Program-made: the position numbers and the translations under genes
Origin: Actinomycetes bacterium
GTDB taxonomy: Bacteria > Actinomycetota > Acidimicrobiia > Acidimicrobiales > Bog-793
Assembly: GCA_021838945.1 (NCBI GenBank)
Contig: JAKCCH010000026.1
Location: 1 to 34,433, forward strand
Reading direction: 5' to 3'
DNA: 34,433 bases
Part shown: in pieces, positions 10,576-27,753 of the stretch
Position numbering within the stretch: position 1 is the first letter of the stretch
Layout: each line of letters starts with the position of its first letter
The notes under the pieces: generated by a model
What the model was told of the DNA's origin: nothing
The model's input: the letters and a program-made list of their open reading frames with translations, nothing else
The model's database searches: none

Positions 10576-12312
10576 GTGGGTGCGATCAGGCGAGTCGGGA
10601 CCACCCTCGCGGCGTTGGCCTCTCTCCAGCTCTGCATGGCGCAGCTCGCCGGTCCGGCTGGAGCCGGGTCCGCCTCGTCGCCATCGCATCTCGCAGCGAC
10701 CGGCTCGGGCTCCGTCGGAGGCTGGGGACATGCAGAGGAGCTCCCCGGCACGGCGACGTCGAACGCGACCGGGCTTGCGGCGGTGTCCTCGGTCTCGTGC
10801 ACGTCCGCGGGTGACTGCGCCGCGGGTGGCTACGTCGACGACCGGCTGAACCGCCTCCAGGCTTTCGTCGCGAACGAGGTGAAGGGAGTCTGGGGTAGCG
10901 CCGAAGAGGTCCCCGGTTCGGGGGCCCTCAACGCCGGCGGCACTGCCGCCGTCAACTCCGTCTCCTGCAGGTTCGCTCGCAGCTGCGCCGCCGGGGGGTA
11001 CTACACCGACCGCGCGGGCGGCCTCGAGGCCTTCGTCGTCGACGACGTCAAGGGAGCATGGCAAGGCGCCGAGGAGGTTCCGGGCACCTCGGCGCTCAAC
11101 GCCGGCGGCGGTGCCGAGGTCAACTCGCTCTCGTGCCCCTCCATCGGCAACTGCTCGGCGGGCGGCTTCTACACCGACGCCGCCGGCGCCGTCCAGGCCT
11201 TTCTCGCCGACGAGGTCGACGGGAGCTGGAGAACAGCCGAGGAGGTGCCGGGCACCGCCACGCTGAACGCCGGCGGGAGCGCCACGGTCACCTCGGTCTC
11301 GTGTACGTCTGCCGGCGACTGCGCCGCGGTCGGCAGCTACGAGGACTCCTCTGGCCACTACCAGGCCTTCGTCGTCACCGAGGTCAAGGGCACCTGGGGC
11401 ATCGCCACGGAGCTCCCCGGAGTGGCCTCGCTCAACGCGGGCGGCAACGCGGACGCCTACGACGTTTCCTGCGCCTCCGCAGGCAACTGCTCAGCCGGCG
11501 GGTACTACACGGACGGTGCGGGCGGCCTCCAGGCCTTCGTCGATGAGGAGATCGGCGGCACGTGGGGCACCGCCGAGGAGCTTCCGGGCACGGCGACGCT
11601 CAACGCGGGCGCGAGCGCGGCGGTCGACTCGCTCGCTTGCACCTCCTCCGGCAACTGCGTGGCCGGCGGCTACTACGCGGACAGCTCGGGCAACCTGCAG
11701 GCATTCGTCGTCGACGAGGTCGACGGCACCTGGCAGGAGGCCGTCGAGGTGCCGCGCACGGCAAAGCTGAACGCAGGCGGTTACGCCTTCGTCAGCTCGG
11801 TGTCCTGCAGCTCTGCAGGCAACTGCGTGGCGGGCGGCGGTTACTGGTCGAGCTTCCTCGTCCAGCAGGCCTTCGTCGTCAACGAGGTGAACGGCACCTG
11901 GCACAACGCGAAGGAGGTCCCGCGCAGCGGCAAGCTCAACGCCGGAGGGAACGCAGAGGTCGATTCCGTGTCCTGCAACCCCGCCGGCTACTGCGTGGGA
12001 GGCGGCGACTACACCGACATCTCCTTCGACTACCAGGCCTTCGTCGCCGGCTACGCGCCAACACCGGCAGTCACGCGAGTGCTCCCGATGACGGGTCCGG
12101 CGTCCGGTGGGACGATGGTCACGATCATCGGCAGAGACCTCGTGGCGCCGGAGGCGGTCCGCTTCGGGCCGGAGAAGGCGCGGATCCGAAAGGTCGTCTC
12201 GGCCACGAGGATCGTGGTCGTCTCGCCGAAGGGCTCGGGCACGGTGGACGTCACGGTGACCACAGGCGGAGGGACCTCGGCGCAGGCGGCTGCCGACCGC
12301 TTCAGCTACTGA
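10576..12312 (+). CDS. Secreted protein with eight 56-residue Cys-pair repeats and a C-terminal IPT/TIG domain
   Basis: This 578-aa exported protein has a signal peptide (about 1-31) and then eight head-to-tail repeats of exactly 56 residues from residue 52 (52-107, 108-163 and so on; the last stops at 493). Each unit has the pattern AEE-VPG, LNAGG, SVSC-x5-C, AGGYYTD, QAFV and EV-GTW. The two Cys are in every copy and probably form a disulfide. Residues 496-578 are an IPT/TIG immunoglobulin-like domain (PMTGPASGGTMVTIIGRDL). The strand-rich, Trp-ending units suggest a beta-propeller of eight blades, which is an inference. The GTG start, 9 bp after pcaJ with TGAGG in front, implies co-transcription, but I see no functional link. 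Enzyme activity is not apparent. Confidence 0.85.
   Translation: MGAIRRVGTTLAALASLQLCMAQLAGPAGAGSASSPSHLAATGSGSVGGWGHAEELPGTATSNATGLAAVSSVSCTSAGDCAAGGYVDDRLNRLQAFVANEVKGVWGSAEEVPGSGALNAGGTAAVNSVSCRFARSCAAGGYYTDRAGGLEAFVVDDVKGAWQGAEEVPGTSALNAGGGAEVNSLSCPSIGNCSAGGFYTDAAGAVQAFLADEVDGSWRTAEEVPGTATLNAGGSATVTSVSCTSAGDCAAVGSYEDSSGHYQAFVVTEVKGTWGIATELPGVASLNAGGNADAYDVSCASAGNCSAGGYYTDGAGGLQAFVDEEIGGTWGTAEELPGTATLNAGASAAVDSLACTSSGNCVAGGYYADSSGNLQAFVVDEVDGTWQEAVEVPRTAKLNAGGYAFVSSVSCSSAGNCVAGGGYWSSFLVQQAFVVNEVNGTWHNAKEVPRSGKLNAGGNAEVDSVSCNPAGYCVGGGDYTDISFDYQAFVAGYAPTPAVTRVLPMTGPASGGTMVTIIGRDLVAPEAVRFGPEKARIRKVVSATRIVVVSPKGSGTVDVTVTTGGGTSAQAAADRFSY
10729..12054 (+). repeat. Eight in-frame 168-bp coding repeats
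   Basis: The 56-codon units of the secreted repeat protein, eight copies (the last truncated to 50 codons). All seven unit boundaries keep the same length with no insertion or deletion, while sequences have diverged at many positions. This suggests old duplication with strong structural constraint on unit length. Confidence 0.85.
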
Positions 12313-21089: not shown

Positions 21090-22343
21090 TCAGCTCACGA
21101 GCTTCAGCCCCGCCACGTTGGTCGCGGTAGCCGAGATCCGCTGGAACGAGGCGGCGATGCGCTCCGGCCGGAGCACGAGGGAGGTCGTTCCGTTGCCGAG
21201 TTGCCCGTAATCGTTGCCGCCCCACGACCACAGCCTCCCGGAGACGGCGAGCGCGTAGCTGGAGTCCCCACCCGAGGCGACGGCCTCGATGCGGACACCG
21301 CTCGGGAAGTTGACGCGCACCGGCCGTGAGCGACTCAGCGTGGAGCCGATGCCCAGCTGTCCGCGCGACCCGTCGCCCCAGGCCCAGACGGACCCGTCGG
21401 TGAGGAGCGCGAGCGTCTGCCCGTTGTCCGGCTTGCTCCCGCCCTGGAACACCTGGCGGACAGGCGCGGGTAGCGGCACTCGTACCGGGACGTCACTGTT
21501 CGTCCGCAGGCCGTCGCCCAGCTGGCCGCCCCGGTTGAAGCCCCAGTCGAAGTACGAGCCGTTCGCCATGAGCGCCCCGGAGCCCTGCCACGACGACACG
21601 AGCGCCGTCACTCGGCCGCCTGGAAGCCCGACCACCGGGCTCGGGCGGGCACTCACGACGGTGGAGCCGTCCCCGAGCTCGCCGTCCTTGCCGAGACCAC
21701 AGGCGTAGACCCGGTGGTGTGCATAGAACAGGCTGTGGTCACCAGCGCCCGACGCGAGGGTGACTCCGTAGATCGGGAGCTTGGTCGGCACCAGCACCTG
21801 GGATCTGGGCAGGCAGATGGTGTGAGCGACGTTGAAGCCCCAACCCCAGGCGTGCCCGGTCGCATCGATGACGAGAGCGGAGTTGTACGGCATCGGGTTG
21901 GCGAGGCGGACGATCCGGACGCCGGAGGGGAACACCACCTGGTGGGGCACCGCGGCGAAGGCGGCGGTCGAGCCATCGCCCAGCTGGCCGGTGGAACCGG
22001 CACCCCATGCCCACACCCCGCCCGAGGCCGTGAGCGCATAGGTGTCGGAGTTGGACGTGGCGATCTGGACGACCGTGCCCGGGATCCCTCGCACGGGAGA
22101 GGGGCGTTTGTGCTCGAGGGTCGTGAGTTTCGGGCCGAATCCGTCTCCGACCACGCCGATGCTGTACACCCCCGTCTGCTGCGCCTGTTGCGTGTGTCGC
22201 CCGTGTTGCGCGGTCCTCGCCGGATCCGCGACCGGGTGCGCGAGACCTGAGGAGCTGCAGGCTGAGGCGGCAACAGCGATCGTGATGAGTGAGGTGACCC
22301 TCGAGGTCGTGGATCGTCCTCGGGGCATCAGGCGGCTGCGCAT
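21090..22343 (-). CDS. Secreted RCC1-repeat beta-propeller protein
   Basis: A 417-aa exported protein. The N-terminus has basic residues and a hydrophobic stretch ending SACSSS (Cys29), a possible but weak lipobox. The rest is RCC1-type repeats: six clear units such as GGVWAWGAGSTGQLGDGST, DGSVWAWGDGSRGQLGIGST and GRLWSWGGNDYGQLGNGTT, plus a degenerate first unit (YSIGVVGDGFGP), giving the usual seven blades. RCC1 propellers bind proteins or ligands; bacterial secreted ones are poorly known. ATG 22343 follows AAGGAAG; an internal ATG five codons on lacks a ribosome site. It is divergent from an ECF sigma gene across 163 bp, so it is a likely regulon member. Confidence 0.85.
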   Translation of the reverse strand: MRSRLMPRGRSTTSRVTSLITIAVAASACSSSGLAHPVADPARTAQHGRHTQQAQQTGVYSIGVVGDGFGPKLTTLEHKRPSPVRGIPGTVVQIATSNSDTYALTASGGVWAWGAGSTGQLGDGSTAAFAAVPHQVVFPSGVRIVRLANPMPYNSALVIDATGHAWGWGFNVAHTICLPRSQVLVPTKLPIYGVTLASGAGDHSLFYAHHRVYACGLGKDGELGDGSTVVSARPSPVVGLPGGRVTALVSSWQGSGALMANGSYFDWGFNRGGQLGDGLRTNSDVPVRVPLPAPVRQVFQGGSKPDNGQTLALLTDGSVWAWGDGSRGQLGIGSTLSRSRPVRVNFPSGVRIEAVASGGDSSYALAVSGRLWSWGGNDYGQLGNGTTSLVLRPERIAASFQRISATATNVAGLKLVS

Positions 22344-22506
22344 TCGGCGTTCTTCCTTCGTCGACTTCGGGCTGGGAGAGCGTAGGTCGTCCGCATCCTT
22401 GATCGGCGGTCGCGGGTGGCTCGCGCCCGGAACGTCACGAAACGTGATAACGCAGGTCTCGAAGATCTTCGGAACCTTTCGGAGGCCTCGTGACTGTGTA
22501 CCGGTA
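22344..22506. promoter_or_regulatory. Divergent region between the RCC1 gene and the ECF sigma gene
   Basis: It contains two GGAAC motifs (22429-22433 and 22471-22475), the -35 core of many ECF promoters, both pointing toward the sigma gene. Matching CGTC-like -10 boxes at 16-17 bp are not convincing. A small inverted repeat TCACG-AAA-CGTGA lies at 22435-22447. Autoregulation by the sigma factor is likely for the family but is not shown by the sequence. Confidence 0.35.
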
Positions 22507-23037
22507 GTGGACGCCACGAGATCCCTGCCTGCAGAGGAGAGGCCCAGCGGTGAGCGGGGCCTCCCGCTGCCGGCCTCGGACGAGCTCGAACGGCTCGGCG
22601 CCCTCGCCCTGCTGCTCTGCGGTGAGCTGGCGGAGGCGGAGGACGCCGCCGCAGAGGCAGTCGAACGTGTGCTTCGCCACCAGCTCTCGTCGCAGATCGA
22701 AGACGTGGGTCCATACCTGAGACGGACGCTCGTGAACGTCGTAGCGCGTCGCGGACGCCGGAGGAGCCTCGAGCGGAGGGTGCTGCAACACCTGTGGTCG
22801 AGGGAAGCGACCCGGAGTGTCGACGACGCAGCGAGCGACCGGAGTGACCTGCGCCGCGCGCTTGATGCGCTACCGCTCGAGCAGCGGGCGGTGGTGGTGC
22901 TTCGCTACTTCGACGACCGAACCGAGTCCGACGTCGCCGAGATCCTCGGCGTGCCGATCGGAACCGTCAAGTCCCGCAACGCCCGCGCCCTTGCGGCGTT
23001 GCGCCGGTTGCTCGCGGGAGGAGAAAACGATGGCTGA
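22507..23037 (+). CDS. ECF-type RNA polymerase sigma factor (SigE-family-like)
   Basis: A 176-aa sigma-70 factor with only regions 2 and 4. Region 2 is LGALALLLCGELAEAEDAAA through YLRRTLVNVVARRGRRRSLE, matching the SigE-type actinobacterial ECF group. Region 4 is LDALPLEQRAVVVLRYFDDR, then the helix-turn-helix ESDVAEILGVPIGTVKSRNA. The start is uncertain: the only in-frame candidate near the domain is GTG 22507, without a ribosome site, which leaves about 25 extra N-terminal residues. It overlaps the following Asp-box membrane protein gene by 8 bp, the typical sigma/anti-sigma arrangement. Confidence 0.87.
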   Translation: MDATRSLPAEERPSGERGLPLPASDELERLGALALLLCGELAEAEDAAAEAVERVLRHQLSSQIEDVGPYLRRTLVNVVARRGRRRSLERRVLQHLWSREATRSVDDAASDRSDLRRALDALPLEQRAVVVLRYFDDRTESDVAEILGVPIGTVKSRNARALAALRRLLAGGENDG

Positions 23038-24421
23038 CGAGGGCAACAGCACTTCGCTCTTGGAGCGGCGCCTGAGCACCCTGATGCAGGAGGAGGTGGA
23101 AGGCCGGATCTCGGTCGAGCGGATCGAGCGGCAGATCGGAGCGCGACGGGCTCGAAGCGCGCCCCTCGAGTCACGGCCTCACGCGACCCGCCGTGCCGTC
23201 ACTGTGGGAACGGCTTTGGCGGTCGTCACCGCGGCGTTGATTCTCGTCGCCGTCGTGGTGGCGCCGCATGGCGCTCGCCCCCACGCGAGGACCACCAGCA
23301 GCACCAGCACACCGACGCCGACGACCTCTGTGACAACGCCGCCCGCCGCCGTTACCTCCTTCATGCCCGGTCTCGTCCAGGCCGCCGCCCTCGACTTCCC
23401 GAGCCAGTCCCACGGCGTCGTCTTCATCCAGCAGTGCAGCTCGTGCGAAGCCAGCTCGGGAAGGTTCACGAGCTGGGTCGCTGTCACCCACGACGGCGGG
23501 AGCTCCTGGACGGTCCGGCACGTCGACATTCCGCTCACGATCGGGGGAGGGTTCCGCGTCACGTTCTCGGGCGCCAACAACGGCTGGACCGACAACGGCT
23601 ACGTCACCCACGACGGCGGGACGACGTGGCACAAGGCGCAGGTTGCAGCTCAGTGGCCGGTGAGCAGCCTCATCGTCAGCAAGGGGTCCGTTTGGGCCAT
23701 CTCGTCCGGCTGCTCATCCTTCGGAGGTTGCGGGACGGTCGTGCTCAGCGGGTCAGCCTCGGGAAGCACGCTCTCGCCCGTCGCGACCCAGCCGCTCAGC
23801 GGTTACGAGCCTGGCACCATCCTCTCCGCCGGACCGGAGTCGGCCTACATACAGGCCGCCGGCCCACACGGGACGGTCCTCGTCGGCACCGCCGACGGCG
23901 GACGGAGTTGGTACGACCTCGCCCAGCCCTGCCCTGCAGGCACAGCGGCACCGAGCCTCATCGCGCCGGCCGGACCGCTCTCTCTCTGGCAGCTGTGCCA
24001 GGCGGGACGGAGCGTGACGACCCCGACCGGCACCGTCGTCAAGCTCGCCCGCGGGCCGCACCCGACGATCTACCTCGCTCGGTCGAGCGACGGTGGGCGC
24101 CACTGGGCGGACAAGAAGGTGGCGGTTCCGAGTGGGCAGGTGACAGCGCAGCCCTCGAGGAGCGCTTGGGTCTGGACGGGTCCGAGCCTCTGGCGCACCG
24201 ACAACGGAGGAGCCTCCTGGAAGAGGGTCTTCTCGAACGGAACCCTCACCCTGCCGTCGTCCGGCAACGCCACCCTGGACGCGGTCTCGATCGAGAGCGA
24301 GACGAGCGCCGTGGTGGCCGAGACGGTCTCGTCGAAGGCAGGCACCTACGCCGTCGTCGGCCGCACCACCGACGCCGGAGCGAGCTGGCAGACGATCACG
24401 ATCTCGCTTCCGAACCACTAG
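23030..24421 (+). CDS. Membrane-anchored Asp-box (BNR) repeat protein, likely anti-sigma or sensor partner
   Basis: A 463-aa type II-like membrane protein. Residues 1-50 are a charged cytoplasmic helix (LLERRLSTLMQEEVEGRISV), 56-78 one transmembrane helix, and 85-105 a Ser/Thr/Pro linker. The outer domain carries six Asp-box motifs: THDGGSSW, THDGGTTW, TADGGRSW, SSDGGRHW, TDNGGASW and TTDAGASW, so a six-bladed propeller of the sialidase/Vps10 type is likely. The sialidase catalytic Arg triad is not evident. The ATG follows GGGAGGAG and overlaps the sigma gene. A short cytoplasmic segment that binds the sigma factor, controlled by an external propeller, is the inferred role; no zinc-binding anti-sigma motif (HxxxCxxC) is present. 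Confidence 0.82.
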   Translation: MADEGNSTSLLERRLSTLMQEEVEGRISVERIERQIGARRARSAPLESRPHATRRAVTVGTALAVVTAALILVAVVVAPHGARPHARTTSSTSTPTPTTSVTTPPAAVTSFMPGLVQAAALDFPSQSHGVVFIQQCSSCEASSGRFTSWVAVTHDGGSSWTVRHVDIPLTIGGGFRVTFSGANNGWTDNGYVTHDGGTTWHKAQVAAQWPVSSLIVSKGSVWAISSGCSSFGGCGTVVLSGSASGSTLSPVATQPLSGYEPGTILSAGPESAYIQAAGPHGTVLVGTADGGRSWYDLAQPCPAGTAAPSLIAPAGPLSLWQLCQAGRSVTTPTGTVVKLARGPHPTIYLARSSDGGRHWADKKVAVPSGQVTAQPSRSAWVWTGPSLWRTDNGGASWKRVFSNGTLTLPSSGNATLDAVSIESETSAVVAETVSSKAGTYAVVGRTTDAGASWQTITISLPNH

Positions 24422-26979: not shown

Positions 26980-27753
26980 ATGCTTGCACGACTTCTGTCC
27001 GCCAAGGCAGCCATCCTCGTCGGGTCCCTCGTGGTGGCTACCGGCGCGGCGGCGGCGGCCTCTGGCTCTTTCCCTGGTACCAGCTCGAGCCATGGCAGCC
27101 TCATGGCAGCCTCCTCGACGGGCCACCCCGCGGTGACGATCGGAGCCAACGCCTTCGGCCTGTGCACCGCCTACACCTCGGTGTCGAAGAATTTCACCGA
27201 CACCTCGAACCCGGCGCTGACGCACTCGTCTGCCTTCCAGGCGCTGCAGGCCGCCGCCGCAGCGGCACAGGGCGAGTCCGTGCAGAGCTACTGCGCGGCC
27301 GTCACGACGACGACGACCTCCGCCGCGTCGAACCTTTCGACCTCTTCGGCCGGGAAGTCGGGCAGCGGTGGCCCCAGCATCGGCGCCAACGCCTTCGGCC
27401 TTTGCACCGCCTATGCGGCAGTGTCGAAGGACTTCACCGACATGTCGAACCCGGCGCTGACCAGCTCGATGGCGTTCAAGGCTCTCGCCACGGCCGCGGG
27501 CGGTGCGAGCGGCGTGCAGGCGTACTGCGCAGCGGTGAAGCGTCCGTCGTCGACCAACGCCGGGGGCGGCGCCAAGGGCGACCAGGGAGGAAGCGGCTCG
27601 CAGTCTGGCAGCCACCCTCAGGGCAAGCCGGCCGACCCCGGATCACAGGGCTCGTCCCACTCTGCCGGCCACGGCAAGCCGAGCGACCCGGGCTCGCAGG
27701 GGTCCTCCCACTCGAGCGGCCACGGGCAAAGCAGCGGCCACGGAAGGGCCTGA
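26980..27753 (+). CDS. Secreted protein with a duplicated NAFGLCTAY domain and a Ser/Gly/His-rich tail
   Basis: A 257-aa exported protein. The signal peptide covers about residues 1-27. Two copies of a 53-55 residue domain follow (54-108 and 134-186), sharing IGANAFGLCTAY, SVSK-FTD-SNPALT, AF-AL and Q-YCAAV. Each copy has two Cys that could form a disulfide. The copies are joined by a Thr/Ser linker. The last 65 residues are low complexity, with repeats of DPGSQGSSHS-GHGKPS. The ATG follows AAAAGGAG. I do not recognise a characterised function; similar NAFGLCTAY-type domains occur in hypothetical actinobacterial secreted proteins. Its 3' end lies inside a 25-bp tandem repeat. Confidence 0.8.
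   Translation: MLARLLSAKAAILVGSLVVATGAAAAASGSFPGTSSSHGSLMAASSTGHPAVTIGANAFGLCTAYTSVSKNFTDTSNPALTHSSAFQALQAAAAAAQGESVQSYCAAVTTTTTSAASNLSTSSAGKSGSGGPSIGANAFGLCTAYAAVSKDFTDMSNPALTSSMAFKALATAAGGASGVQAYCAAVKRPSSTNAGGGAKGDQGGSGSQSGSHPQGKPADPGSQGSSHSAGHGKPSDPGSQGSSHSSGHGQSSGHGRA

Follow-up and report, generated by a model that had tools for sequence, protein, structure and literature searches.

The window analysed here, a stretch of 34,433 nucleotides, is a whole contig (C7) of one genome (G000; 3.04 Mb in 178 contigs, ~81% complete). On its plus strand a gene for an ECF sigma factor of 176 amino acids (22507..23037) runs into a gene for a one-pass membrane protein of 463 amino acids (23030..24421), with an overlap of exactly 8 bp (ATGGCTGA); on the minus strand lies the divergent gene of an RCC1-repeat protein (21090..22343), separated from the sigma gene by a 163-bp intergenic region. 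A candidate promoter box, GGAACC-N12-CGTGACT (22471..22495, plus strand), is located in this region 11 nt 5' of the sigma start codon. Two further secreted proteins are encoded on the plus strand of the window: one (10576-12312) comprises about eight repeats of ~50 residues (..SCTSAGDCAAGG.. QAFVVDEVKGTW) and an IPT/TIG domain at its C terminus (E=2.6e-11), and the other (26980-27753), which gave no match in a Pfam search, carries the unit 'IGANAFGLCTAY..VSK.FTD.SNPALT' twice and a Ser/Gly/His-rich tail.

Profile searches placed the sigma factor in the ECF superfamily (TIGR02937, 52.3 bits; cut-off 42.9), with a clear region 4 (Pfam PF08281, 57.5 bits, E=1.1e-15) and a weak region 2 (18.6 bits against a cut-off of 24). 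The best NCBIfam model was that of the SigE family (TIGR02983), whose curated cut-off of 141.55 lies above the score obtained (111.2 bits), so that the protein is SigE-family-like rather than a member. Orthologues occur in two genomes of the same family, G005 and G022 (59-60% identity), and upstream of all three genes the promoter box, including its spacing, is conserved to the base, 10-11 nt 5' of the sigma start. Read as GGAAC-N16-GACT, the box contains the -35 element typical of ECF promoters, and ECF operons are commonly autoregulated; the box is likely an autoregulated promoter of the sigma gene, and the sigma mRNA starting from it would be nearly leaderless. A genome scan allowing one mismatch returned a single exact match each in G005 and G022 and two in G000, the additional one (C145:5143-5167) adjoining unrelated genes and not being common to the other genomes; as a regulon search, this left only the sigma operon shared across genomes. 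No GGAAC-type box was found upstream of six more distant sigma/Asp-box pairs, and no copy of the GGAACC-N12-CGTGACT box faced the RCC1 gene even when three mismatches were allowed.

The overlapping membrane protein begins with a tail of 58 residues (23030..23203, plus strand; 11 basic and 9 acidic residues), taken as cytoplasmic, followed by a single hydrophobic helix starting at about residue 52-59 and then by a Thr/Pro/Ser linker and a beta domain that carries six Asp-boxes. The 8-bp overlap, the single helix, the six external Asp-boxes and the lack of a zinc anti-sigma domain, all described in the first-pass annotation, were seen in the sequence. An AlphaFold model (mean pLDDT 74), built with 13 related sequences, gave a membrane helix at residues 52-76 and, beyond a disordered linker, an all-beta domain at residues 115-457; for the tail, it bore out the helical character assigned earlier to an anti-sigma-like segment but predicted two helices (7-25 and 29-42, at low to moderate confidence) rather than one. 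The zinc-binding HxxxCxxC motif of class I (ZAS) anti-sigma factors is absent because residues 1-60 contain no Cys, and no Pfam zinc anti-sigma family matched. Likewise, Pfam and NCBIfam searches recognised no anti-sigma domain in the protein, and N-terminal or external domains of the RsgI or RsiV type gave no match up to E=1. Residues 31-103 weakly matched the N-terminal part of the CU044_5270 family model (NF038083), at 24.6 bits and thus well outside the family, whose cut-off is 100. We know of no tested function for this family, and the literature searched made no mention of it.

The external domain shows the repeated S/T-x-D-x-G-x-x-W motifs that mark the blades of Asp-box beta-propellers, at residues 153, 193, 287, 352, 390 and 446; the Pfam model PF02012 scored 26.9 bits, just below its cut-off of 27. 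Profile searches against the PDB returned GH74 xyloglucanases (E=2e-24), Ycf48, DAIP, sortilin and sialidases, and Foldseek searches with the model likewise returned Asp-box propellers (E down to 2e-9); the number of blades is unsettled because the TM-scores were only 0.2-0.5.

The sigma/Asp-box arrangement recurs. In a profile scan across the order (397 genomes), 44 genomes gave Asp-box matches, and a sigma gene lay directly upstream in 11 of the 29 Asp-box loci examined with a sigma profile. Altogether 17 pairs were collected, mostly from the same order: the window pair and a second one on contig C115 of the same genome, the orthologous pairs of G005 and G022, eleven others (G006, G002, G017, G028, G071, G147, G279, G285, G154, G289 and G088) and two from elsewhere in the phylum (G590 and G501). 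In G005 and G022, the membrane proteins are 45-47% identical to that of the window and the 8-bp overlap is the same, with different flanking genes; most pairs overlap by 4 or 8 bp. A named-genome scan with the window membrane protein alone gave no match, an alignment query found nothing beyond the G022 and G005 contigs, and no relative was present among the viral contigs and plasmids searched. Several neighbouring genes were noted in the course of this survey. A pro-kumamolisin-type peptidase gene (PF09286; locus L041, G000:C115, 3871-5454) follows the second pair, and at three loci (L105 on G000:C127, L011 in G023 and L013 in G018) a one-helix Asp-box protein that lacks a sigma gene is encoded right beside a serine/threonine kinase gene, perhaps a further receptor partnership for this propeller.

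Next to a sigma gene, every Asp-box protein (17/17) has a tail of 32-95 residues before a plain membrane helix and no lipobox; of the 17 relatives that have no sigma gene beside them, 12 carry a lipobox (Fisher p=2e-5, uncorrected for relatedness; adjacency taken as within ~1.5 kb, and starts picked by eye or for being close to the sigma stop codon). In our view, this association of tail and sigma gene is the strongest indication that the tail would serve the sigma factor. Conservation of the tail sequence across the pairs is low. Furthermore, distances between sigma factors correlated with those between propellers over 16 pairs (Mantel r=0.59, p=2e-4) and with those between tails (r=0.54), a correlated divergence that partly reflects species relatedness and is expected from co-evolution and shared descent alike. 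The earlier view of the sigma factor and the membrane protein as a unit is thereby strengthened, the pair recurring at 17 loci, mostly with overlapping genes, and the tail going with the sigma gene.

The RCC1 protein is a clear member of its family (PF00415, 158.7 bits, cut-off 21.7; PF25390, 182.3 bits). The first-pass annotation described it as a secreted, seven-bladed product of the divergent gene; the orientation held and seven repeats were counted by eye, but the best start, also read by eye, is the ATG at 22343 with a GAAGGAAG-like ribosome-binding site rather than 22517, and the signal sequence (..AVAASAC) may be a lipobox, so that the protein could be lipid-anchored instead of secreted. 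As for its proposed role as a third component, conservation of the three-gene layout in related genomes had been named as a check, and the lack of a conserved neighbourhood as a refutation. The layout is not conserved, because G005 and G022 have no RCC1 orthologue at the thresholds used, the orthologues of 53-63% identity (in G003, G017 and G019) stand among other genes with no sigma gene adjacent, and no promoter box points towards RCC1. The divergent neighbour of the G005 and G022 pairs is an unrelated protein of 105 amino acids, and the sigma-like gene nearest to the G003 copy is ~4 kb away. Neighbourhood comparison thus led us to reject a three-gene sigma/Asp-box/RCC1 system, and the RCC1 gene is probably a chance neighbour outside the unit.

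We consider it probable that the two plus-strand genes constitute a sigma/anti-sigma unit in which the sigma factor would be bound, freed by a signal from the sensor and then set to transcribe its own operon, the RCC1 gene standing beside it by chance. The overlapping genes, the recurrence of the pair and the tail-helix-propeller layout are legible in the sequences; the membrane protein is best read as a non-zinc single-pass anti-sigma factor with the Asp-box propeller as its sensor, and its binding to the sigma factor, its ligand and the regulon are what we infer. In such a unit, the two-helix tail of ~50 residues would bind the sigma factor and keep it at the membrane; regulated proteolysis would be triggered when the propeller binds a ligand (glycan, peptide or protein) or when the exposed linker is cleaved; and the sigma factor so freed would transcribe, from the GGAACC-N12-CGTGACT promoter, its own operon at least. 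Site-2 proteases (M50), found in nearly all bacteria, are also present here.

The main alternative, which we regard as rather unlikely, is that the Asp-box protein acts at the surface as a receptor, or binds or cuts glycans, and shares only its expression with the sigma factor, without any regulatory effect on it. GH74 xyloglucanases and sialidases among the profile matches would fit such a role, as would the many Asp-box relatives that are lipoproteins without a sigma gene; against it stand the absence of a lipoprotein signal and the presence of a cytoplasmic tail in all 17 sigma-adjacent proteins, and the persistence of the pair while flanking genes change. The gene overlap and the co-divergence fit either sign of control, and the membrane protein could also be a positive partner, with a tail that recruits the sigma factor, makes it more stable or, once released, acts as a co-activator; since membrane-bound partners of ECF sigma factors are mostly inhibitors (PMC8999054, PMC8103513), we hold this to be improbable. 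Still less probable is a three-part surface system with the secreted RCC1 propeller as ligand or main target of the pair: the divergent genes and their shared 163-bp intergenic region speak for it in this one genome, against which stand the missing layout at both orthologous pairs, the RCC1 orthologues lying apart from sigma genes in three genomes and the lack of a box towards RCC1.

Among the other ECF sigma genes of G000, some precede genes for anti-sigma-like proteins of the zinc type (C131, C106, C138, C30 and C85; Cys/His pattern judged by eye), and others precede genes for one-helix proteins with tails similar to that of the window protein (C133, C20 and C130). At the last of these (L045, 1727-3259, minus strand), the one-helix protein carries a serpin domain on the outside (PF00079, E=5e-65), and its gene overlaps the end of the ECF sigma gene; it is possibly a protease-sensing anti-sigma factor. 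The tails of several sigma-paired proteins of this genome, the serpin protein included, weakly match the N-terminal part of NF038083, which suggests a shared tail with exchangeable sensors. A further protein (L053, G000:C78, 111-2270, minus strand) combines a Kelch propeller with one helix and a tail resembling CU044_5270, with no adjacent sigma gene noticed. We tentatively propose, at somewhat less than even odds, that a short non-zinc anti-sigma tail serves in this actinobacterial order as a common plug for different external sensors (Asp-box propeller, serpin and others), each with its own ECF sigma factor, and that Asp-box lipoproteins have repeatedly become receptors by replacement of the lipoprotein signal with the tail. 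If true, these proteins would form an unnamed class of modular anti-sigma factors, one of them perhaps sensing proteases through its serpin domain.

Should the sigma/anti-sigma reading of the window pair be right, Asp-box propellers would be added to the few external sensor domains listed for anti-sigma factors, in a recurring pair open to laboratory testing, and a cytoplasmic tail together with an overlapping sigma gene would predict which of this group's many unannotated propeller proteins are receptors and which are plain surface lipoproteins. Ycf48, DAIP, GH74 xyloglucanase, sortilin and sialidase share the Asp-box repeats and the beta-propeller fold according to the profile and Foldseek matches. 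To our knowledge, none of them has a sigma-linked cytoplasmic tail. The CU044_5270 family resembles the window protein and several sigma-paired G000 proteins over the tail and membrane helix, but the match is weak, the window protein is far under the cut-off and its external part is unrelated. The literature search, which did not cover the main ECF classification (NAR, gkaa1229), so that an earlier group number is possible, returned no paper containing both 'anti-sigma factor' and 'Asp-box'.

Among characterised systems, BldN/RsbN of Streptomyces likewise involves a membrane-anchored actinobacterial anti-sigma factor of a non-zinc class (class III; PMC8103513). It differs in that we know of no external propeller in RsbN. 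In SigI/RsgI of Clostridium thermocellum, a one-pass anti-sigma factor combines a short N-terminal cytoplasmic domain with a variable external sensor, either carbohydrate-binding or enzyme-derived, and the system likewise occurs as several paralogous pairs in one genome; SigI, however, belongs to another sigma family, the N-terminal domain of RsgI is of its own kind, a periplasmic domain of RsgI cleaves itself, and the RsgI sensors listed include no Asp-box propeller (PMC12203970). The SigV/RsiV lysozyme receptor of Bacillus subtilis shares the combination of an ECF sigma factor with a membrane-bound anti-sigma factor, in which binding of a protein ligand to the external domain leads to proteolysis; this domain is of the DUF4163/DUF3298 type rather than a propeller, and its ligand is known (PMC5014341). 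By analogy, the membrane protein is best read as functioning like RsgI (PMC12203970) and RsiV (PMC5014341), while belonging by sequence to the family of neither.
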